Positions 34,060 to 44,480 of a stretch of DNA of 64,000 nucleotides are shown one piece after another. The stretch spans positions 1 through 64,000 of the forward strand of contig NZ_VSZS01000052.1 of NCBI RefSeq assembly GCF_008180155.1, given 5' to 3'. The DNA comes from Neoaquamicrobium microcysteis. GTDB taxonomy: Bacteria > Pseudomonadota > Alphaproteobacteria > Rhizobiales > Rhizobiaceae. The notes beneath the pieces were generated by a model. It was not told where the DNA came from, made no database searches, and worked only from the letters and a program-made list of their open reading frames with translations. The first letter of the stretch is position 1; every line of letters begins with the position of its first letter. The position numbers and the translations under genes are program-made.

Positions 34060-34662
34060 ATGCGCGGTGCTCCATTAAAAATACTGGTCATTGATGAGAA
34101 CCGGCCTCGCGCCACAATTATAGACGCTGGTCTCCGAGAAGCCGGCCACGAGGCCGTGACAATCATCCATGATGTGACCGGCATCGCTGCAAGGATCGAG
34201 GAATTGCAGCCGGACGTTATCGTCATCGACCTGGAAAACCCGAACCGCGATATGCTTGAGAATATGTTCCAACTATCCCGCGCAGTGAAACGGCCGATCG
34301 CCATGTTCGTCGACCGCTCCGACATGGCGTCGATCGAGGCGGCCATCGATGCCGGAGTGTCGGCCTATGTGGTCGACGGTTTGAAAAAGGAGCGTGTCAA
34401 GCCGATCCTCGATATGGCGATCATCCGCTTCAATGCCTTCTCGCGGATGGCGCGCGAGCTGGAGGAAGCGCGTAGCGAACTGGAAAGCCGAAAGGTCGTC
34501 GAGCGCGCCAAGGGCATTCTCATGAAGTCGCGGGGACTTTCCGAGGCCGACGCGTATGGGCTTTTGCGCAAGACAGCGATGAACGAAAACCGAAAGATCA
34601 GTGAGATCGCCCAGAGCCTCGTTACGGCGGCCGGTTTGCTGGGTCCTGGAGGCGACGCATGA
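34060..34662 (+). CDS. nasT: Nitrate-responsive antiterminator NasT (ANTAR)
   Basis: This 200-residue protein has a receiver-like domain (LKILVIDENRPRATIIDAGL, phosphoacceptor-position Asp in VIVIDLENPN) and a C-terminal ANTAR domain (about residues 140-190, ESRKVVERAKGILMKSRGLS). ANTAR binds paired hexaloop RNA hairpins and prevents terminator formation. NasS sequesters NasT until nitrate is present. The gene overlaps nasS by four bases. The likely target leader is at 36073-36192. Confidence 0.92.
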   Translation: MRGAPLKILVIDENRPRATIIDAGLREAGHEAVTIIHDVTGIAARIEELQPDVIVIDLENPNRDMLENMFQLSRAVKRPIAMFVDRSDMASIEAAIDAGVSAYVVDGLKKERVKPILDMAIIRFNAFSRMARELEEARSELESRKVVERAKGILMKSRGLSEADAYGLLRKTAMNENRKISEIAQSLVTAAGLLGPGGDA

Positions 34663-35885
34663 GCGGCAAACACCAGATCGCCGCCGGGTTTCTGCCCTTG
34701 CTCGATAGCGCGTTGCTGGCCGCCGCCCACGAACAGGGCTTTGCAGAGGCCGAAGGCATTGAGCTCCGGCTGGTCCGGGAAAACTCGTGGGCCAGCATCC
34801 GGGACCGGCTCGCAGTCGGTCATTTCGATGCCGCTCACATGCTGGCGCCGATGCCGATTGCCTGCAATCTGGGCCTGACGCCCCTGGCGACGGAAATGAT
34901 CGCACCGATGGCGCTTGGTCTCGGGGGCAATGCCGTGACCGTGTCGGTCGCTCTTTGGAGCGCCATGCGGGACAACGGCGCGCTTGATGACCTGGACCCC
35001 CTGCGAAACGGTAAGGCGCTGGGGTCAGTGATCTCGGCACGGAAGAGAGGCGGTGGCCGGCTCTTGCGTTTTGGTGTGGTGCACCCGCACTCGGGCCATA
35101 ACTACGAACTGCGATATTGGCTGGCGGCCTGTGGGGTCGACCCGGAGCGGGAGATCGAAATAGTCATCCTGCCGCCACCCTTGATGCCCGACGCCTTGAT
35201 TGCAGGCCGCATCGATGGATATTGCGTCGGCGAGCCATGGAACACTGCGGCGGTGTCAAAGGGCGCCGGACGCATCGTCACCGTGAAAGCTGCGATCTGG
35301 CGGTCGAGCCCGGAGAAGGTGCTTGGGGTCGCCAAGGCCTGGGCTGACCGAAATCCAGAAGCTTTGACCGCGCTGCTTCGGGCGCTCTATCGCGCTGCGG
35401 AATGGTGCGGATCGTCTGAAAACCTCGGCGATCTGGCCCGTATCCTCGCCAGCACCCATTATATCGACTGCCCGCAGGAGTGGTTGATGCCAGCGCTCAT
35501 TGGCGCAGTCGAGGTGGGACCAAGTCAAGTCGTCGCGGTGCCCGACTTTTTTGTTCCGCACGCCAAGGCGGCGACCTTCCCGTGGACAAGTCATGCGCTC
35601 TGGTTCTACAGCCAGATGGTGCGGTGGGAACAGGTCGATGCCAACATCGCCAACGAAGGGATTGCGCGGAACACCTACCGACCTGATCTCTATCGCGCCG
35701 CATTGCGTGATGTCGATGTGGCGTTGCCTGGCGCCAACGCCAAGGTAGAGGGCGCGCTGAACGAGCCGACGCCGGTTGGTTCTTCAGGCCCCAGCCTCAC
35801 GCTCGGTCCCGACGGATTCTTCGACGGGGCGGTCTTCGATCCTGACCAGGTTAGCGCATATCTGAGCGGTCAACGAAAACGCTAG
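34659..35885 (+). CDS. nasS: Nitrate sensor NasS (NrtA/CmpA-like, cytoplasmic)
   Basis: This 408-residue protein resembles nitrate/bicarbonate ABC binding proteins of the NrtA/CmpA family, with IAAGFLPLLDSALLAAA, HSGHNYELRYWLAACGV, YCVGEPWNTAAV and the family FVPHAKAATFPWTSHALWF. It has no signal peptide, as expected for cytoplasmic NasS, which binds nitrate and releases NasT. Its ATG overlaps nasT (ATGA). Confidence 0.92.
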   Translation: MSGKHQIAAGFLPLLDSALLAAAHEQGFAEAEGIELRLVRENSWASIRDRLAVGHFDAAHMLAPMPIACNLGLTPLATEMIAPMALGLGGNAVTVSVALWSAMRDNGALDDLDPLRNGKALGSVISARKRGGGRLLRFGVVHPHSGHNYELRYWLAACGVDPEREIEIVILPPPLMPDALIAGRIDGYCVGEPWNTAAVSKGAGRIVTVKAAIWRSSPEKVLGVAKAWADRNPEALTALLRALYRAAEWCGSSENLGDLARILASTHYIDCPQEWLMPALIGAVEVGPSQVVAVPDFFVPHAKAATFPWTSHALWFYSQMVRWEQVDANIANEGIARNTYRPDLYRAALRDVDVALPGANAKVEGALNEPTPVGSSGPSLTLGPDGFFDGAVFDPDQVSAYLSGQRKR

Positions 35886-36046
35886 CTCCCATCGCCGGGA
35901 GAACTGTGGGTGAGGTGTTTGCGATGCACAATATTTGCTCACGTAACGCCAAAGATTGCCGGATTATTCGACAGTCCCTGAGCCCGGCGACGAGTTGGCC
36001 AGCCGGTAGTCGTTGCAACTCAACGGAAAATCCCTCGACCTCTGAC

Positions 36047-36062
36047 TGGCACGCTTCCTGCT
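36047..36062 (+). promoter_or_regulatory. Sigma54 (-24/-12) promoter of the nas operon
   Basis: The sequence TGGCACGCTTCCTGCT has GG (36048-36049) and GC (36060-36061) exactly 10 bases apart, matching the TGGCACG-N4-TTGC consensus. Transcription would start near 36073, three bases before the first leader hairpin. This fits nitrogen-controlled (NtrC/RpoN) expression. Confidence 0.8.
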
Positions 36063-36072
36063 TCCCTGTCCG

Positions 36073-36118
36073 TGAGGCCCATCGTCGGGCCACATGATTA
36101 GCGTCCAAAGAAGGGCGC
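36073..36118 (+). promoter_or_regulatory. ANTAR-target (NasT) leader RNA: two hexaloop hairpins
   Basis: The first hairpin has stem GGCCC (36076-36080) and GGGCC (36087-36091) around loop ATCGTC. The second has stem GCGTCC (36101-36106) and GGGCGC (36113-36118) with one G-U pair around loop AAAGAA. Both six-base loops have A at position 1 and G at position 4, the defining feature of ANTAR RNA targets. They lie at the very start of the predicted transcript and just before a terminator, so NasT binding would allow read-through into the nitrate genes. Confidence 0.85.
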
Positions 36119-36125
36119 ACTAGGC

Positions 36126-36192
36126 AAAGCCGCCGATCAGATTCAGCCCGCCCGAGATATCGGGCGTCGCGAGTCTGGCCGGCGGCTTTTTT
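36126..36192 (+). terminator. Intrinsic terminator in the nas leader
   Basis: An outer stem pairs AAAGCCGCCG (36126-36135) with CGGCGGCTTT (36180-36189). It encloses an inner hairpin CGCCCGAGATATCGGGCG and is followed by six T residues (36187-36192). It ends 48 bases before the transporter start, so unless antitermination occurs the nas transcript should stop here. Confidence 0.88.
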
Positions 36193-36239
36193 GTTTTCAG
36201 CCACAGCGGTGTCCCTGAAGCCGCAGATGGAGCAGCAGC

Positions 36240-37541
36240 ATGATCGAGCCGGTCGAAAGCCACTCTTTGCAACAGCGAGGCGCCAGCAGGGCACTGTCGC
36301 TTTCCACCATCGCCTTCACGGTGTGTTTTGCGGTCTGGACGATCTTTTCGATCATCGGCGTGGGAATCAAAGCCGAGCTCGGCCTTTCGGAAACGGAATT
36401 CGGCCTCTTGGTCGGCATGCCGATCCTCACTGGCTCGCTGGTGCGCATGTTGCTCGGCATTTGGACAGACCGCCTGGGCGGTCGCCTGGTTTATACGGCG
36501 ACGATGCTCGCGGCGGCGGTCGCTACCTTCCTGCTCGCCTTTGCCACGACCTACGCGCAGATGCTGATCGCGGCGCTCGGGGTGGGACTTGCCGGCGGGT
36601 CGTTTGCCGTCGGTGTCGCCTATGTCTCGCGCTTCTATCCGCCTGCAAAGCAAGGCACGGCTCTTGGCATTTTCGGTGTCGGCAACGTCGGCGCCGCTGT
36701 GACGAAATTCGTCGCTCCCTTCGTCTTGCTGGCGTGGGGCTGGCAGAGCGTGGCCCTCATTTGGGCTGCCTCGCTGGTGTTCATGGCGGCGGTCTTCTGG
36801 CTGGCGACGGATGATGATCCGGTGATTAAGCAGCGTCGCATGACAGCCGCCGGCCAGCCCCGCAGCTTCCTGGCAGAGTTCGAACCTCTGAAGGATATCC
36901 GTGTCTGGCGCTTCTCGCTTTACTATTTCTTCGTGTTCGGGGGCTTCGTCGCCCTGGCCCTGTGGCTTCCACGCTATCTGATCGGCGTATATGGGTTCGA
37001 ACTAGCCACCGCCGGCATGATTGGCGCGGCCTACTCAATTCCGGCTTCGATCTTCCGTGCTTACGGCGGTGTCCTGTCCGACCGTATCGGTGCGCGCGCC
37101 GTGCTCTACTGGACTTTCGCCGTGTCCGTGGTCTGCTGCGCCGTCCTCGCATTGCCTGCTACCGACTATACGGTTCGCGGCATCAACGGACCGATCGCAT
37201 TCCAGTTCGAGATCGGATGGCTGACATTCATCATTGTAACCTTCGTGCTCGGCTTCTTCATGGCGATTGGCAAGGCGGCCGTCTACAAGCACATCCCAGT
37301 CTACTACCCCCATAATGTTGGTGCAGTGGGGGGCCTCGTCGGCATGATCGGCGGGCTCGGCGGCTTCGTATTACCCATCGCTTTCGGCGCGCTCAATGAC
37401 CTGAGCGGCATCTGGTCGAGCTGTTTCATGCTGCTCTTCGTCGTCGTGGCAGCCTGTCTCGTCTGGATGCATGTGGCAATCCAGCGAATGGCCCAGGCGC
37501 AATCGCTGGCCGAACAGGCTCTGACCTCACCGGCTGAATAG
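36240..37541 (+). CDS. Nitrate/nitrite MFS transporter (NarK/NasA type)
   Basis: This 433-residue, 12-segment major facilitator has the nitrate signatures GLLVGMPILTGSLVRMLLGI (first half) and NVGAVGGLVGMIGGLGGFVL (second half). It imports nitrate, and possibly exports nitrite, for assimilation. GGAGCAGCAGC precedes the ATG. It is the first gene of the operon downstream of the NasT-controlled leader. Confidence 0.92.
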   Translation: MIEPVESHSLQQRGASRALSLSTIAFTVCFAVWTIFSIIGVGIKAELGLSETEFGLLVGMPILTGSLVRMLLGIWTDRLGGRLVYTATMLAAAVATFLLAFATTYAQMLIAALGVGLAGGSFAVGVAYVSRFYPPAKQGTALGIFGVGNVGAAVTKFVAPFVLLAWGWQSVALIWAASLVFMAAVFWLATDDDPVIKQRRMTAAGQPRSFLAEFEPLKDIRVWRFSLYYFFVFGGFVALALWLPRYLIGVYGFELATAGMIGAAYSIPASIFRAYGGVLSDRIGARAVLYWTFAVSVVCCAVLALPATDYTVRGINGPIAFQFEIGWLTFIIVTFVLGFFMAIGKAAVYKHIPVYYPHNVGAVGGLVGMIGGLGGFVLPIAFGALNDLSGIWSSCFMLLFVVVAACLVWMHVAIQRMAQAQSLAEQALTSPAE

Positions 37542-37553
37542 GGACAACGATCA

Positions 37554-40004
37554 ATGACCGAGAAACTTGTCATAGTCGGCAACGGGATGGCGCCTGGCCG
37601 GATGCTGGAGCATCTGCTTGAGGCCGCCCCGAATCGCTTCCAGATTACCATCTTCAACGCCGAACCGCGCGTGAACTACGACCGCATCATGCTCTCTCCC
37701 GTTCTGTCGGGCGAAAAGCAGTATGAGGAAATCGTCATCCACGGCGATGGCTGGTACATCAAGCATGGCATCACGCTCTACAAGGGCCACAAAGTCGTCG
37801 CCATAGACCGTGACGCGAAGACCATCACCTCAAACCAGGGCGTAACCGAAACGTACGACAAGCTGGTCATCGCCACCGGCTCCGTGCCGTTTGTCATTCC
37901 GGTTCCCGGCAAGGACCTCCCAGGGGTGCTCTCCTATCGCGACCTGGATGATGTAAGCGCAATGCTTGTGGCAGCGCAATCGCGCGAAACGGCCGTTGTC
38001 ATCGGTGGCGGGTTGCTCGGCCTTGAGGCGGCGGCCGGTCTCGCCGAACGCGGGATGGACGTGACTGTGCTTCACGTCATGCCCACACTGATGGAACGGC
38101 AGCTCGACCCTGCCGCCGGCTATTTGCTGCAACAGGCCGTCGAGGAGCGCGGCATCAAGGTCCGCACCAAGGCCAACACCAAAGCAATTCTTGGAAACGG
38201 AAAGGTTGAGGGCGTCGAGCTCGAAACCGGTGAAATCATTCCAGCGACCTTGGTGGTGATGGCGGTCGGCATCCGGCCCAACGTCGTCCTTGCCACAGAG
38301 GCCGGATTGGAGGTGAAGCGTGGCATCGTCACCGACAACCGGATGGTAACGTCCGATCCCGACATTCTTTCCGTCGGCGAATGCACCGAGATCGACGGAC
38401 GCGTCTACGGGCTCGTCGCGCCGCTTTACGAGATGGCCAAGGTGGCGGCGGCGCAGCTCGCAGGCACCGAAGCCAAACGCTTTGTCCACGCCGACACGCC
38501 GACCAAGTTGAAGGTCACCGGCATCGATCTCTATTCGATCGGCGATTTTGCAGACGGTGAGGATCGTGAGGAGATCATCCTGCGCGACGCATCTGCTGGC
38601 ATCTACAAGCGTGTGATCCTGCAGGACAACAAGATCATCGGAACAGTGCTGTTCGGTGAGACCGCGGACGGCCCGTGGTTCAATGAGCTCAAGAAGAAGG
38701 CTGTCGACATCTCAGGCATACGCGACACGCTGATTTTCGGGCAGGCGTTCCAGGGGGGCGTGTCCACGGACCCTTTGGCGGCCATTGCGGCCCTGGCGGA
38801 TGATGCGGAAGTCTGCGGCTGCAACGGCGTTTGCAAGAGCACGATCACGTCAGTTATCGCGGAAAAGGGACTGACGTCGCTGGAAGACGTGCGGGCGCAC
38901 ACGAAGGCCTCCGCCTCGTGCGGTACGTGCACCGGGCTGGTCGAAAAGATCATGACCCTGACTCTGGGAGACGGGTACAATCCAGCGGTCGTTCAACCAA
39001 TGTGTGGCTGCACCGATCTTGGCCACGACGACGTTCGCCGGCTGATAAAGGCGAAGAGCCTGAAGACCATCCCGCAGGTCATGCAGGAGCTGGAGTGGAA
39101 GACTTCGTGCGGCTGTGCCAAATGTCGGCCCGCCCTCAACTACTACCTCGTGGCCGACTGGCCGGCCGAGTACGCAGATGACTACCAGTCGCGTTTCATA
39201 AACGAGCGCGTCCACGCCAACATTCAAAAGGATGGCACTTACTCGGTCGTTCCGCGCATGTGGGGAGGCGTGACCTCGGCAGGCGAGCTGCGTGCAATCG
39301 CAGACGTGGTCGACAAGTTTGCCATTCCGGCGGTGAAGGTCACCGGTGGTCAACGCATCGATATGCTGGGCGTCCGCAAGGAGGACCTCCCTGCAGTCTG
39401 GGCCGATCTCGGCAAGGCCGGCTTCGTGTCGGGCCATGCCTATGCCAAGGGCCTGCGTACCGTAAAAACCTGCGTCGGCACCGATTGGTGCCGTTTCGGC
39501 ACCCAGGATTCGACCGGGCTCGGCGTTCGCATCGAGAAATTCATGTGGGGCTCCTGGACGCCGGCCAAGGTCAAGATGGCCGTCTCCGGCTGCCCGCGCA
39601 ACTGCGCGGAAGCGACATGCAAGGATGTCGGCGTGATCTGTGTGGATTCGGGGTACGAGATCCACTTTGCAGGCGCAGCCGGCCTCGACATTAAGGGTAC
39701 CGAAGTTCTCGGACAGGTCAGGACCGAAGAAGAGGCACTGGAGGTGATCGTTGCACTCACCCAAATGTACCGAGAGCAGGGCCGCTATCTGGAGCGCATC
39801 TACAAATGGGCCAGACGTATCGGGCGTGACGAGATCCAGCGCCAGATCATCGACGACCCGCAGAAGCGCAAAGCGTATTTCGACCGCTTCGTCTTTAGCC
39901 AGAAATTTGCACAGGTTGACCCGTGGTCGCAACGCGTTTCCGGCAAGGACAAACACGAATTCAGCCCCATAGCGCCTATCAGTTTCAACGAGGCTGCAGA
40001 GTGA
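37554..40004 (+). CDS. nirB: Assimilatory nitrite reductase [NAD(P)H], large subunit NirB
   Basis: This 816-residue enzyme reduces nitrite to ammonium with NAD(P)H. It has an N-terminal FAD/NAD(P) domain (ATGSVPFVIPVPG, GGGLLGLEAAAGLAERG), two BFD-like [2Fe-2S] segments (CGCNGVCKSTI...CGTCTG and CGCTDLGHDD...CGCAKC), and a C-terminal siroheme/[4Fe-4S] domain with the cysteines of TCVGTDWCRFG and SGCPRNCAEATCKD. Its stop overlaps the nirD start by one base. Confidence 0.95.
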   Translation: MTEKLVIVGNGMAPGRMLEHLLEAAPNRFQITIFNAEPRVNYDRIMLSPVLSGEKQYEEIVIHGDGWYIKHGITLYKGHKVVAIDRDAKTITSNQGVTETYDKLVIATGSVPFVIPVPGKDLPGVLSYRDLDDVSAMLVAAQSRETAVVIGGGLLGLEAAAGLAERGMDVTVLHVMPTLMERQLDPAAGYLLQQAVEERGIKVRTKANTKAILGNGKVEGVELETGEIIPATLVVMAVGIRPNVVLATEAGLEVKRGIVTDNRMVTSDPDILSVGECTEIDGRVYGLVAPLYEMAKVAAAQLAGTEAKRFVHADTPTKLKVTGIDLYSIGDFADGEDREEIILRDASAGIYKRVILQDNKIIGTVLFGETADGPWFNELKKKAVDISGIRDTLIFGQAFQGGVSTDPLAAIAALADDAEVCGCNGVCKSTITSVIAEKGLTSLEDVRAHTKASASCGTCTGLVEKIMTLTLGDGYNPAVVQPMCGCTDLGHDDVRRLIKAKSLKTIPQVMQELEWKTSCGCAKCRPALNYYLVADWPAEYADDYQSRFINERVHANIQKDGTYSVVPRMWGGVTSAGELRAIADVVDKFAIPAVKVTGGQRIDMLGVRKEDLPAVWADLGKAGFVSGHAYAKGLRTVKTCVGTDWCRFGTQDSTGLGVRIEKFMWGSWTPAKVKMAVSGCPRNCAEATCKDVGVICVDSGYEIHFAGAAGLDIKGTEVLGQVRTEEEALEVIVALTQMYREQGRYLERIYKWARRIGRDEIQRQIIDDPQKRKAYFDRFVFSQKFAQVDPWSQRVSGKDKHEFSPIAPISFNEAAE

Positions 40005-40333
40005 TGAACTGGTTCGATATCGGCGAAATCAACGATATTCCACTGCGCGGTGCGCGTTGCCTGAAGACGCGTCAAGGCAAGATCGCGGTCTTTCGCACGC
40101 ATGAAGACCGCATCTATGCCATCGAGGACCACTGTCCGCACAAGGGTGGCCCACTCAGCCAAGGGATCGTTCACGGGGCAGCCGTAACATGCCCGTTGCA
40201 CAATTGGGTGATCTCGCTGGAGACCGGAAAGGCGCTCGGCCCGGACGACGGAGCCGTGAGGACGATCCCTGTGCGCGTCGAGGAGGGGCGGATCCTTGTT
40301 GGCCTCGGGGAACTGCTGGCGGCTGCGGAATAG
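40004..40333 (+). CDS. nirD: Nitrite reductase small subunit NirD
   Basis: This 109-residue Rieske-type protein begins MNWFDIGEINDIPLRGARCL and has the cluster motifs CPHKGG and CPLHNWVI. It partners NirB in ammonium formation. The start at 40004 overlaps nirB by one base (TGATG). The nitrate reductase gene follows after three bases. Confidence 0.94.
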   Translation: MNWFDIGEINDIPLRGARCLKTRQGKIAVFRTHEDRIYAIEDHCPHKGGPLSQGIVHGAAVTCPLHNWVISLETGKALGPDDGAVRTIPVRVEEGRILVGLGELLAAAE

Positions 40334-40336
40334 ATC

Positions 40337-43012
40337 ATGCAGACACGCCAATCTGATGAGGTAGAGACAACCTGCCCCTATTGCGGGGTCGGGTGCGGGG
40401 TGCTGGCCAAAGTCGCTGCCGATGGAGCAATTTGTGTCCGCGGCGACCCCGAACACCCGGCGAATTTCGGTAAACTGTGCTCAAAAGGGTTGGCGCTGAG
40501 CGAGACGATGGCGCGCGATGGGCGCGTCCTGCATCCTGAGATCGCGGGAGAACGGGTCGAATGGAACACCGCGCTTGATCTGGTTGCACGCAATTTTGCC
40601 GACACCATCGCCCAGCACGGGCCGGATGCGGTGGCATTCTACATCTCGGGCCAGCTGCTAACAGAAGACTACTATGTCGCCAACAAGCTGATGAAGGGCT
40701 TCATCGGTTCAGGCAACATCGATACAAATTCGCGGCTGTGCATGGCTTCGTCGGTCGCAGGTCATCGCAGGGCATTTGGCGAAGACATCGTACCGGGCCT
40801 CTACGACGATTTCGACGAAGCCGACTTGATCGTCCTCACGGGTTCGAACGCTGCATGGTGTCATCCGATCCTTTACCAGCGCATGCTGACGGCCCGCCGG
40901 GTCCGCGGAACAAAGATCATCGTCATCGACCCCCGCCGGACGGCCACCGCCGACGAAAGTGACCTGCACCTGCCGCTCGACCCAGGTACCGATGTGCTAT
41001 TGTTCAACGGTCTGCTGGCACATCTGGCGCGTGTCGGCGCGATGAACGAAAGTTATGTCGCCAAGCATACGTCGGGCTTTGAGGCCGCGATTTCGCTCGC
41101 ACTTGCCGATGCCCCCTCCAGCGAAGCCGTCGCACTGGGTTGCGGCCTGCCGGTGGCCGACGTGCGCCTGTTTTACGATCTCTTTGCCGCGACCGAGCGC
41201 GCCGTGACGGTCTACAGCCAGGGCGTCAACCAGTCGGCCCACGGTACCGACAAGGTCAATGCAATCATCAATTGCCATCTGGCGACAGGGAGTATCGGCA
41301 AACCGGGAGCCGGGCCGTTTTCGGTCACGGGTCAGCCCAACGCGATGGGCGGCCGCGAGGTGGGCGGACTGGCAAACCAGCTGGCCGCTCACATGGGTTT
41401 TGAAAACGGGGAAGACGTGGACCGCGTGGCACGCTTCTGGCGTGCCCGGAATATGGCGCGCACGAGTGGGCTGAAAGCGGTCGACATGTTTCGCGCTGTC
41501 GGTGACGGCCGCGTCAGGGCGATCTGGATCATGGGTACCAATCCGGCGGTGTCGATGCCGGATTCGAGCCGCGTGCGTGCTGCCCTGAAGCGTTGCGATT
41601 TCGTGGTTGTGTCGGATGTCGTGCGAACCGACACGACGCGCTTTGCCGACGTCTTGCTGCCTGCGGCCGCGTGGGGCGAAAAGGACGGAACGGTCACGAA
41701 CTCCGAGCGTCGCCTTTCCCGCCAGAGACCGTTCGTGCCCACGCCAGCTGAGGTCAGGGCCGACTGGCGCATCATCTGCGATGTGGCTTCACGCATGGGT
41801 TTTGCCGATGCGTTCGAATATGCGGATCCTGCAGCCATCTTCCGCGAGCACGCGTCGCTGTCGGCCTTCGAGAACAATGGCGCACGGTTGTTCAACCTCG
41901 GCGCTCTCGCTGCCATTTCCAACGGTGATTATGAGACCTTCGGCCCCCGTCATTGGCCGCAACCGAACGAACGCCCCGACGACGCACGCCTCCTGGCGGG
42001 TGGACGCTTTCAGACGCCGGACGGTCGCGCCCGTTTCATCCCGGTCAGGCAGGAGGGCGTGGCCCAGCCAGCAAATTCCGCCTTCCCGCTCGCGCTCAAC
42101 ACCGGTCGCCTGCGCGATCAGTGGCATACAATGACGCGTACCGGACTGGTGCCGCGCTTGATGGCGAACGCGCCTTCACCCGTGGTGGAGCTTCATTCCC
42201 GCGATGCCGCCGAAAATGAGATGGACGAGGGCGACCTCGCTTATCTGGCCACACCCTATGGATTTGCCCGCGCCAAGGTGCGCATCAACGATGGACAAAA
42301 ACCGGGCCAGGTCTTCCTGCCGATCCACTGGAGCGGCCAGTATGCCGTCAACGCCGGTACCGGGCCACTGGCGTCGCCTGTCACAGACCCGTTCTCCGGC
42401 CAACCGGAATTGAAGCATGTGCCTTTGCGCCTCCGGCGCGAAGTGAAGGCGTGGGAGGGCGTGCTGATCAGCCGCCGGGATCTCCGGCCGACCGGCTTCG
42501 TTCATTGGAGCCGGCACAAGGTCGAGGGCGGCTGGGTCTACGAACTGTGTGGAACGGAACGGCCCGACCAAGGCGTACTTCTTGCGAAAGGGCTGCTCGA
42601 TCCAGCCGGGCGCGCGCAAAGGGTCGAATATGACGACCGCCGTGGGCAAGCTTATCGCGCGGCAGTCACAGACCAGAACGGTGCCCTGATGGAGGCACTG
42701 TTCGTCGCGCGTTCGCAGCAGTTGCCACCTTACTCATGGTTGCTTGCGCTCTTGGCTGCCCGCGCGCCGCTTTCGCTTCAGGAACGCATGGCGGTGCTCT
42801 CCGGACAGTCCCCGAAGCCGGCGCTGCAGGCAGGCCGCATCGTGTGCGCCTGTTTCAATGTCGGCGAAAACCAGCTCGCCGAAGCAGTTATGGCCGGTTC
42901 GACCACCCTCGACCAGATCGGCAAGCTCTTGCAGGCTGGCACCAACTGCGGCTCCTGTCGCTCCGAAATCAGGAAGCTTCTCCATGAAAATAGTCTCCAG
43001 GCAGCCGAGTGA
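40337..43012 (+). CDS. nasA: Assimilatory nitrate reductase, catalytic subunit
   Basis: This 891-residue molybdopterin enzyme reduces nitrate to nitrite in the cytoplasm. The N-terminal [4Fe-4S] ligands are Cys13, Cys16, Cys20 and Cys48 (CPYCGVGC and GKLCSKG). The molybdopterin domains contain SRLCMASSVAGHRRAFGED and GREVGGLANQLAAHMGF, and the C-terminus carries a BFD-like [2Fe-2S] domain (CACFNVGENQ...NCGSCRSEI) for electron entry. Naming varies (nasA, nasC or narB). The downstream cysG overlaps it by 29 bases. Confidence 0.94.
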   Translation: MQTRQSDEVETTCPYCGVGCGVLAKVAADGAICVRGDPEHPANFGKLCSKGLALSETMARDGRVLHPEIAGERVEWNTALDLVARNFADTIAQHGPDAVAFYISGQLLTEDYYVANKLMKGFIGSGNIDTNSRLCMASSVAGHRRAFGEDIVPGLYDDFDEADLIVLTGSNAAWCHPILYQRMLTARRVRGTKIIVIDPRRTATADESDLHLPLDPGTDVLLFNGLLAHLARVGAMNESYVAKHTSGFEAAISLALADAPSSEAVALGCGLPVADVRLFYDLFAATERAVTVYSQGVNQSAHGTDKVNAIINCHLATGSIGKPGAGPFSVTGQPNAMGGREVGGLANQLAAHMGFENGEDVDRVARFWRARNMARTSGLKAVDMFRAVGDGRVRAIWIMGTNPAVSMPDSSRVRAALKRCDFVVVSDVVRTDTTRFADVLLPAAAWGEKDGTVTNSERRLSRQRPFVPTPAEVRADWRIICDVASRMGFADAFEYADPAAIFREHASLSAFENNGARLFNLGALAAISNGDYETFGPRHWPQPNERPDDARLLAGGRFQTPDGRARFIPVRQEGVAQPANSAFPLALNTGRLRDQWHTMTRTGLVPRLMANAPSPVVELHSRDAAENEMDEGDLAYLATPYGFARAKVRINDGQKPGQVFLPIHWSGQYAVNAGTGPLASPVTDPFSGQPELKHVPLRLRREVKAWEGVLISRRDLRPTGFVHWSRHKVEGGWVYELCGTERPDQGVLLAKGLLDPAGRAQRVEYDDRRGQAYRAAVTDQNGALMEALFVARSQQLPPYSWLLALLAARAPLSLQERMAVLSGQSPKPALQAGRIVCACFNVGENQLAEAVMAGSTTLDQIGKLLQAGTNCGSCRSEIRKLLHENSLQAAE

Positions 43013-44480
43013 AACCGGCCCGGCACGTATCGGCGCACTCAGCGTGCTGCCGGTCTTCTTCGATCTTTCGGTCAAGCGGGTTGTCGTCGCAGGCGGCAGC
43101 GAGGCGGCGGCATGGAAGGCCGAGCTGTTGGCGGCCGCCGGTGCCTGCGTCGACCTCTATGCAACCGAGTTGTCCGATGAGATGAGCCGGCTGCTCGCCC
43201 ACGGTACCGCAATCACGCATCATTCGCGCGGCTGGGACCATAGCTGCCTGCCGGGGGCCGCCATCGCGCTGGCTGACGCGAAGGACGACGATGAAGCCGC
43301 TGCTTTCGAAGGCGCGGCACGTGCGGCCGGCGTGCCGTGCAACGTCATAGACCGACCCGCCTATTGCCATTTTCAGTTCGGCTCGATCGTGAACCGATCG
43401 CCGGTCGTCATCGGTGTCTCGACGTCGGGCGCAGCGCCGATACTGGGACAGGCAGTGCGGCGGCGCATCGAAACCTTGCTGCCGCCTTCTCTTGCGGCCT
43501 GGGCCGACTTTGCCCGGCGAGTGCGCGAACATGTGGTCCGTCGGCTGAGTCCCGGTGCTCAGCGTCGCCGCTTCTGGGAAGGCTTCGTGGACCGGGCCTT
43601 CGGACCGGCCCCGGGCAGCCAGGAGGCGGCGGCGGTCATAGCCTCCATCGAGGCTCGATCTCAGTCCGGTGCCAGGGGGAAAGTCACGTTTGTGGGTGCC
43701 GGGCCGGGGGATGCTGAACTGCTAACCATCAAGGCCGTCCGTGCCCTGCAATCCGCAGATGTCATCCTGTTCGACGACCTTGTGTCAGACGAGGTGCTGG
43801 AACTCGCCAGGCGCGAGGCCAAACGCATCCTGGTAGGTAAGCGCGCCGGGCGAGCGAACTGCAAGCAGCACGAGATCAACGAGATGATGGTGTCTCTCGC
43901 GCGTGCCGGTCGCAACGTCGTTCGCCTCAAGTCCGGCGATCCGATGATCTTTGGTCGGGCGGGCGAGGAGATCGAGGAACTGGATAGGGCCGGCCTTGCA
44001 TATGACGTCGTTCCAGGCATCACGGCGGGCATCGCTTTGTCCGCGGCCCTGGGGGTATCTTTGACCCATCGAGACCACGCGAAATCCGTACGCTTCGTTA
44101 CCGGGCACTCTCGCCATGGTGGGCTACCGGAAGACATTGACTGGATCAGCATCGCCGATACCTCGGCCACGACCATCTTCTACATGGGTGGTCGCACCGC
44201 GTGCGAAATCTCCTCAAGGCTTAGGTCGCTCGGCATGCTCGCGCAAACCCCGGTCGTTATCGCGGCCAACATTGGACGCGCGACGCAGTCGGTGACCCAC
44301 ACAACACTTGGTGGACTACCCGACGCTGCTGCGGAGCTTCGTTACGGCCAGGCGGTTCTGATTGGCATCGGCAGTGTGTTCCGGCAAGCTGCCGAGGCAG
44401 GCGGTACGAAAAACAAGAAATTCGCGCCGCGGTGCGACGCCGAAATTCCAGCTCAAGAACGCCTTCGCCTGTTCGCATAG
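42984..44480 (+). CDS. cysG: Siroheme synthase CysG
   Basis: This 498-residue fused enzyme makes siroheme for NirB. The N-terminal half is precorrin-2 dehydrogenase/ferrochelatase (VVAGGSEAAAWKAELLAAAG, Asp/His pocket near FDLSVKR), and the C-terminal half is uroporphyrinogen-III C-methyltransferase (FVGAGPGDAELLTIKAVRAL, FGRAGEEIEEL, VPGITAG). The start at 42984 lies inside the end of the nitrate reductase gene with AGGAAG upstream, so it is translated with the operon. Confidence 0.94.
   Translation: MKIVSRQPSETGPARIGALSVLPVFFDLSVKRVVVAGGSEAAAWKAELLAAAGACVDLYATELSDEMSRLLAHGTAITHHSRGWDHSCLPGAAIALADAKDDDEAAAFEGAARAAGVPCNVIDRPAYCHFQFGSIVNRSPVVIGVSTSGAAPILGQAVRRRIETLLPPSLAAWADFARRVREHVVRRLSPGAQRRRFWEGFVDRAFGPAPGSQEAAAVIASIEARSQSGARGKVTFVGAGPGDAELLTIKAVRALQSADVILFDDLVSDEVLELARREAKRILVGKRAGRANCKQHEINEMMVSLARAGRNVVRLKSGDPMIFGRAGEEIEELDRAGLAYDVVPGITAGIALSAALGVSLTHRDHAKSVRFVTGHSRHGGLPEDIDWISIADTSATTIFYMGGRTACEISSRLRSLGMLAQTPVVIAANIGRATQSVTHTTLGGLPDAAAELRYGQAVLIGIGSVFRQAAEAGGTKNKKFAPRCDAEIPAQERLRLFA

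Follow-up and report, generated by a model that had tools for sequence, protein, structure and literature searches.

The window, i.e. the whole analyzed stretch of 64,000 nucleotides from contig NZ_VSZS01000052.1 of Neoaquamicrobium microcysteis, contains a nas gene cluster on the forward strand, in which nasT and nasS are followed by a leader region and by an operon with transporter, nitrite reductase, molybdopterin oxidoreductase and siroheme synthase genes (Table 1). The original prediction, which was made from the sequence, had placed nasT-nasS directly upstream of the leader and nitrate genes downstream, and this arrangement was confirmed by domain and family matches. The nasT product accounts for the one ANTAR match in the whole genome. 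Its best matches among solved structures were 1s8n and 6wsh, described as Rv1626 and EutV, respectively (PMC8934654), and NasS matched structures of nitrate and bicarbonate transporters. For the product of 40337-43012, the formate dehydrogenase model scored best, while this model and the NasA and NasC models all remained below their cut-offs; by context, the protein is considered to be the assimilatory nitrate reductase. The start of nasS overlaps the stop of nasT by 4 nt (ATGA, 34659-34662) and nirB and nirD overlap in TGATG at 40002-40006, which suggests coupled translation of both gene pairs.

Table 1. Genes and predicted regulatory features of the nas locus in the window.
Feature	Position	Strand	Evidence or remark
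nasT, receiver and ANTAR domain, 200 aa	34060-34662	+	Pfam PF03861 (E 1.9e-21), PF00072
nasS, NrtA/CmpA-like ligand-binding protein, 408 aa	34659-35885	+	PF13379 (E 5.9e-73)
NtrC-like site TGCACAATATTTGCTCA	35925-35941	+	2 mismatches to TGCAC-N7-GTGCA; 122 nt before the -24 element
-24/-12 (sigma54) promoter TGGCACGCTTCCTGC	36047-36061	+	One mismatch to TGGCAC-N5-TTGC
Predicted transcription start	36073	+	12 nt past the -12 C (36061)
P0, 5'-terminal hairpin GGCCC[ATCGTC]GGGCC (hairpin 1 of the original prediction)	36076-36091	+	ANTAR-type hexaloop in the window's clade
P1, putative recruitment hairpin of the ANTAR motif, GCGTCC[AAAGAA]GGGCGC (hairpin 2 of the original prediction)	36101-36118	+	
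P2, putative antitermination hairpin GGC[AAAGCC]GCC	36123-36134	+	A1/G4 hexaloop; loop and 3' arm double as the terminator's 5' arm
Intrinsic terminator stem, AAAGCCGCCG / CGGCGGCTTT and inner stem	36126-36189	+	Folding, covariation
T6 tract	36187-36192	+	Read in the sequence
NarK-family nitrate/nitrite MFS transporter, first gene of the controlled operon	36240-37541	+	TIGR00886 (E 9.1e-64, below the curated cut-off), PF07690
nirB-type nitrite reductase large subunit	37554-40004	+	TIGR02374, above cut-off
nirD-type small subunit	40004-40333	+	TIGR02378, above cut-off (queried from 40010); start read from the sequence
Molybdopterin oxidoreductase with C-terminal BFD domain	40337-43012	+	PF00384, PF01568, PF04324
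ORF holding siroheme synthase (CysG), true start inside the ORF	42744-44480	+	NF007922 over residues 102-546, above cut-off

Between nasTS and the nas operon, the leader is composed of a sigma54 box, the hairpins P0, P1 and P2, the terminator and the T6 tract, in this order. P0 begins three bases after the predicted start; the P0-P1 linker is 9 nt and the P1-P2 linker 4 nt in length. The hexaloops ATCGTC (P0) and AAAGAA (P1), each with an A at position 1 and a G at position 4 (A1/G4), and the terminator with its T6 tract had been named in the original prediction and were found at 36076-36091, 36101-36118 and 36126-36192. A third A1/G4 hexaloop, P2, had been overlooked, so that three ANTAR-type hexaloops (P0, P1 and P2) occur in tandem. 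Folding of 36073-36200 resulted in -68.1 kcal/mol (z = -7.0), a value equalled by none of 200 dinucleotide shuffles. On the minus strand, a mechanically called ORF of 147 aa extends across the leader in antisense (35851-36294) and shows no sign of being a gene.

For the -24/-12 pattern, five matches with at most one mismatch were found in the window compared to 5.6 expected, which is the chance level for the pattern alone. The support for the promoter therefore comes from its conservation in relatives. In a survey of 131 distinct leaders, the pattern was searched with at most one mismatch within 110 nt upstream of P1, using 50 dinucleotide shuffles for comparison. A sigma54 box was present in 96 of the 131 leaders, whereas the shuffles yielded a mean of 0.46 and a maximum of 4. 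With the box in place at 36047-36061, a count of 12 nt leading to 36073 and this conservation, the promoter proposed for a start at about 36073 could be retained. The earlier view that the promoter and hairpin predictions support each other also held, since 87 of the 96 boxes lie 47-54 nt before P1.

The position of the box bears on a simpler explanation, in which the hairpin and the T6 tract would form a plain 3' terminator of nasTS and the promoter of the nas operon would lie further downstream. The distances are compatible with it, as the distance from the end of nasS to the terminator is about 240 nt and 47 nt separate the T6 tract from the transporter gene. This explanation is hardly tenable, since the sigma54 box precedes the terminator and its conservation goes along with that of P1 and P2, and the covariation of P1/P2 described below would have no reason in a plain terminator.

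The NtrC-like site of the window is degenerate in its right half. For its analysis in relatives, the 91 of 100 sigma54 leaders with enough upstream sequence were used and 150 nt upstream of the box were scanned. TGCAC-N7-GTGCA with at most two mismatches could be identified in 76 of the 91 leaders versus 5 of 91 in one mononucleotide shuffle each, and the distance to the start of the -24 element is 120-127 nt in 56 of the 76. The genome contains one sigma54 gene (rpoN) and one ntrC above the curated cut-off. A putative input of nitrogen limitation is thus supported by position and conservation, not by the single sequence. The claim of two inputs, nitrogen limitation and nitrate, is in agreement with the conserved promoter, the NtrC-like site, rpoN, ntrC and the single ANTAR protein. 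A sigma54 promoter of nasT itself was rejected, as the sole match with at most three mismatches and intact GG/GC (34056, two mismatches) overlies the nasT start codon; the NtrC matches before nasT all had three mismatches.

For the analysis of P1, P2 and the terminator, 80 named loci encoding a NasS relative and the window were scanned for hexaloops, and leaders were picked by A1/G4 and C:G-closed loops. The alignment comprised 46 leaders out of 81 NasS-adjacent regions, window included. The first pick left 34 of the 81 regions without a leader, L042, L070 and L077 being among those recovered later. Loci with a terminator-overlapping hexaloop and no P1 nearby, such as L079, L081-L084, L087, L089, L093 and L103, were left out, and locus L065 was dropped for lack of a T run.

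The five counted pairs of P1 are formed in 46 of 46 aligned leaders (100% of cells paired), and two of these pairs have changed on both sides. The 3-bp core of P2 is paired in 46 of 46 leaders, the outer core pair being GC in 43, AU in 2 and GU in 1; a possible fourth pair is not kept (unpaired in 34/46). The closing C:G and G4 of P1 and P2 and the A1 of P1 are invariant in these 46 leaders, a set picked for A1/G4 and C:G. For P1 and P2 combined, the covariation score, the cells paired and the cells changed on both sides exceeded all 500 shuffles, and the score was also higher than in every slid version. Two measures were weaker, with the pairs changed on both sides being matched by 24 and the further pair types by 46 of 500 shuffles. 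The combination of P1 and the terminator stem likewise exceeded all 500 shuffles in score, cells paired and cells changed on both sides, the weaker measures being reached by 173/500 (pairs changed on both sides) and 43/500 (further pair types). The comparison of relatives for compensatory stem changes, suggested as a check of the original prediction, hence revealed covariation in P1, P2 and the terminator across the 46 leaders.

Alignment columns 39-42 pair in P2 and also in the terminator. The terminator uses the loop and the 3' arm of P2 as its 5' arm, so that P2 and the terminator are mutually exclusive by sequence. The 5' arm of P2 (36123-36125) lies outside the terminator stem (36126-36189), yet it is conserved, with few compensating changes; because the terminator stem does not use it, its conservation speaks for P2 itself. 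In stepwise folding, in which no polymerase footprint was modelled, P1 and P2 were present at each length tried from 36134 to 36180, and P0 at all of these lengths except 36160. At 36185, again with no polymerase footprint modelled, P2 was replaced by the terminator. The terminator fold (-68.1 kcal/mol) is 15 kcal/mol more stable than the fold with P2 forced (-53.1 kcal/mol). The P2 stem has only 3 bp in the window and 3-4 bp among the scanned NasS loci.

A linker of 3-5 nt between P1 and P2 was found in 102 of 131 leaders of the window's lineage. Linker length was treated as variable in a published motif search, where it is given as 5-12 nt for the eut leaders of Enterococcus faecalis, and a linker of 3 nt is described as too short for EutV (PMC3369931). 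The 4-nt linker of the window is probably normal for NasT, as judged from the lineage.

The spread of the leader was analyzed with a covariance model (R1) built from P1 and the terminator. The window leader is part of the training set, and the training leaders were chosen for A1/G4, so that A1/G4 counts in R1 matches lean that way. The window leader scored 78.7 bits and the next match in the same genome 29.8 bits. At E<=10, this genome yielded 13 matches, one of them being the leader and one the terminator of the leader on the opposite strand. The P1 hexaloop is absent from the five best other matches (L116-L120), which were the ones inspected; six further matches score 16.1 bits or less. One of the five, L118 (25.4 bits), contains a P2-like GGC[AAAGCT]GCC without the P1 hexaloop. 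Other NasT targets in the window's genome were rejected on the grounds that these five best matches besides the leader lack the P1 hexaloop.

In the same family, 119 of 297 genomes have an R1 match at E<=0.01; in the order, the number is 103 of 397 at E<=1e-4, some genomes being shared with the family set. The 89 family-scan matches with the highest scores apart from the window (at least 47 bits) were examined, 81 of which had not been part of the training alignment, and P2 was defined there as the GC-N6-GC hairpin best matching the terminator. P1 has A1/G4 in 89/89 and C:G closure in 88/89 of these best matches, whereas P2 has A1/G4 in 87/89 and an arm that fits the terminator arm in 89/89. 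In the order-wide set of 80 loci, which includes weak matches and omits L227/L228 as duplicates, A1/G4 was found at P1 in 67 and at P2 in 72 loci; many of the exceptions have a G at position 1. The predicted P1-P2 motif is widespread in the order. No Rfam 15 family was found for 36099-36198 at the gathering cut-off or at E<=1, with a chance snoRNA match as the only hit, and R1 could seed an Rfam family for this leader.

Several relatives possess two such leaders, sometimes few kb apart (L054, L070, L075; also genomes G599, G655, G621, G644, G040, G112, G251 and G527). The NasT regulon may be larger in these relatives than in the window's genome. In Zavarzinia aquatilis (L066), four A1/G4 hexaloops are located downstream of nasS behind one sigma54 box, possibly representing two attenuator-type pairs in tandem.

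A further motif, CTCCTCCC, was observed before P1 in 15 of the 80 order-wide loci (L229, L233, L234, L235, L238, L242, L247, L248, L251, L252, L254, L255, L265, L267 and L268) and also in L074 (1 of 131 leaders). The 15 loci belong to genomes of one family (code f6), which groups with Devosia loci in the NasS tree. The motif is anti-Shine-Dalgarno-like, as known from alphaproteobacterial 'cuckoo' sRNAs. Once terminated, the leader may have an additional function as a small RNA. In 14 of 131 leaders, CCTCC is also present in the terminator region; the window does not belong to these.

The original prediction had described the leader as a NasT antitermination leader with P0 and P1 as the paired hexaloops of the motif. 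The attenuator could be upheld; the named pair could not, as neither hairpin overlaps the terminator. If P0 and P1 were nevertheless the working NasT target, the terminator would have to be blocked sterically, without P2. The 9-nt P0-P1 linker falls within the range of 5-12 nt given for the E. faecalis eut leaders (PMC3369931) and the P0 stem comprises more base pairs than that of P2, both of which would suit such a mechanism. It is very unlikely all the same: the 5' arm of P2 is conserved outside the terminator stem, the P2 loop is A1/G4 in 87 of the 89 best family-scan matches, an A1/G4 P0 is missing from most leaders, and a terminator-competing hairpin is required by the model as published for EutV (PMC3369931). 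P0 and P1 were therefore rejected as the core NasT target. The conserved pair is P1 and P2, and P0 is lineage-specific as an ANTAR loop.

P0 was surveyed in the 96 of 100 sigma54 leaders with a distance of 15-40 nt between the predicted start and P1. A hairpin starting no more than 6 nt from the predicted start was found in 92 of the 96 leaders, with loops of 3-7 nt. The loop is a tetraloop in 50 of the 92 (UUCG in 9, GAAA in 5) and an A1/G4 hexaloop in only 9 of the 96. In a larger set of 131 distinct start-to-P1 segments, which differs from the 131 leaders of the promoter survey, 110 contained such a hairpin. The segments yielded 29 distinct P0 hexaloops; A1 and G4 occur together in 13 of these, compared to 2.0 expected (nominal P 2e-8, without correction for ancestry).

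The distribution of the P0 loops was mapped on a quickly built NasS tree with 72 rows, all with a readable sigma54 leader, taken from 155 loci with NasS (159 tried). The P1 loop of the rows was required to have a G at position 4, and the row pairs L012/L031, L006/L030 and L044/L126 are identical or from the same genome. A P0 hexaloop with a purine at position 1 and a G at position 4 (purine-1/G4) is found in 18 of the 72 rows and requires at least 4 changes, whereas the strict A1/G4 form (13/72) requires 9. The ends of the P0 loop of L034 could pair (G-C); this loop is included among the hexaloops solely because the rule applied favours purine-1/G4.

In the window's clade of 15 rows (SH-aLRT 98, no bootstrap), P0 is readable as a purine-1/G4 hexaloop in 14. 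The exception is L145, the sister of the window, with a P0 loop of 5 nt. Position 4 is a G in 14/14 loops with no change and position 1 is an A in 9 and a G in 5, while at least 4, 4, 7 and 6 changes are required at positions 2, 3, 5 and 6, respectively. In 7 of the 14 loops the ends could pair, resulting in a tetraloop; the window's ATCGTC cannot close in this way. In the 18 purine-1/G4 leaders, P0 and P1 are separated by 8-11 nt.

These observations have to be weighed against two other explanations for P0. It could be a DNA palindrome bound by a repressor or an activator instead of an RNA hairpin, as it is located right at the predicted start, a position at which operators occur. This is highly improbable and was rejected: the spacer between the arms varies between 3 and 7 nt and the arm sequences vary as well, unlike in a dimer operator. 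P0 could also be a mere 5'-end hairpin, involved for example in protection of the RNA end or in folding and with no role for NasT, the leader being an ordinary two-hairpin NasT leader. A hairpin of this kind in 92 of 96 sigma54 leaders, 50 of them with tetraloops and only 9 with the A1/G4 hexaloop, would agree with it. It would also fit the pentaloop of the window's sister, the 9 changes for 13 rows with the strict loop, and the 7 of 14 clade loops that could close to tetraloops. Against it stand the 14 of 15 clade members readable as purine-1/G4 hexaloops with an unchanged position 4, the excess of A1 and G4 (13 of 29 hexaloops versus 2.0 expected, not ancestry-corrected), and the linker of 8-11 nt in the 18 purine-1/G4 leaders, which is within the 5-12 nt of the E. 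faecalis eut leaders. The chance of this explanation is considered to be somewhat below even. On the sequence evidence, P0 looks like a genuine ANTAR-type loop in the window's lineage, but it is an extra element and not the conserved partner.

Taken as a whole, the leader is most likely a transcription attenuator under the control of NasT, located behind an NtrC/sigma54 promoter and present in a version with three hairpins (probability of about 0.9). In Paracoccus denitrificans, the NasS-NasT complex was described to be opened by nitrate and NasT to bind the nasA leader (PMC3795266). The ANTAR (EutV) dimer was proposed to bind no more than a single hexaloop at once, starting with that of the recruitment hairpin and moving on to that of the antitermination hairpin (PMC8934654), and the targets of EutV, AmiR and NasR are described as a first hairpin and a second one at the base of the terminator, which competes with the terminator (PMC3369931).

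Accommodated to the window, nitrogen limitation would lead to phosphorylated NtrC, which would activate the sigma54 RNA polymerase from about 120 nt upstream of the promoter, and transcription would start near 36073. Without nitrate, NasS would hold NasT, P0 and P1 would fold in the nascent RNA, followed by the strong terminator, and transcription would end at the T6 tract. With nitrate, NasS would release NasT, and a NasT dimer would dock on the emerging P0 and/or P1. The dimer would then shift to P2 and keep it folded, so that AAAGCCGCCG would be unable to pair with CGGCGGCTTT and the polymerase would read into the transporter-nirBD-nitrate reductase-cysG operon. For the window, the binding of NasT, the response to nitrate, the position of the start and the role of P0 in recruitment are inferred.

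For P0, a tentative proposal with close to an even chance is that it acts as a second recruitment hairpin, which, as the earliest structure to emerge from the polymerase, would catch NasT before P1 and P2 exist and feed it to the weak 3-bp P2. Lineages would then exchange the ANTAR loop (purine-1/G4) of P0 for a plain tetraloop or the reverse, which would alter the nitrate threshold or gain of the attenuator.

The attenuator mechanism and the two-tier control are already known. The eut leaders of E. faecalis bound by EutV are described with two tandem hairpins with 6-nt A1/G4 loops, as in the window (PMC3369931, PMC8934654); in both cases the second hairpin is located in the 5' base of the terminator and terminator and antiterminator are exclusive (PMC3369931). 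The differences are that EutV is described to be activated by EutW phosphorylation, whereas NasT would be held by NasS and freed by nitrate, and that the window has a P1-P2 linker of 4 nt instead of 5-12 nt, the extra upstream hexaloop P0 and a sigma54 promoter. The nasA leader of P. denitrificans is closest in gene arrangement, with nasTS upstream and hairpins before the nas operon (PMC5424462, PMC3795266). It shares the NasS-NasT complex that opens on nitrate and NtrC (NtrBC) as the upper control tier. Two hairpins, HI and HII, were tested there and an NtrC site located before nasT was mutated; mutation of HI resulted in the loss of most expression and a chromosomal HI mutant showed no growth on nitrate (PMC5424462). 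In the window, by contrast, the NtrC-like site and the sigma54 box are located directly before the leader.

The nasF leader of Klebsiella oxytoca is likewise described as a nitrate-responsive ANTAR antitermination system of an assimilatory nas operon with a two-hairpin motif (PMC7496416). There, the one-component NasR senses nitrate itself, and NasS-NasT are given as absent from the cluster (PMC5424462). In the alphaproteobacterium Bradyrhizobium diazoefficiens, NasT-recognised leader hairpins before nitrogen-oxide genes were also reported; NasT affects several loci in this species (PMC6759348), in contrast to one convincing leader found by R1 in the window's genome. More than two candidate ANTAR hairpins per RNA, as in the window, are described for EutX/Rli55, which has an additional single hexaloop (PMC8934654), and for PPE1-5', a ligand of PdtaR with three hairpins (PMC8131098). 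According to these sources both RNAs work in trans and sequester the protein, whereas the extra loop of the window is part of the attenuator itself and located at its 5' end. A full-text search of one open library found no ANTAR attenuator with three tandem hexaloops in cis.

In the window, the predicted control of initiation (NtrC/sigma54) and of elongation (NasT) is arranged on one short stretch, at a spacing similar to that in relatives. The leaders with the extra hexaloop and their relatives with a tetraloop represent a natural set of constructs for testing the proposed hop of the ANTAR protein from one hairpin to the next. The same set could show the effect of one more docking site on sensitivity.
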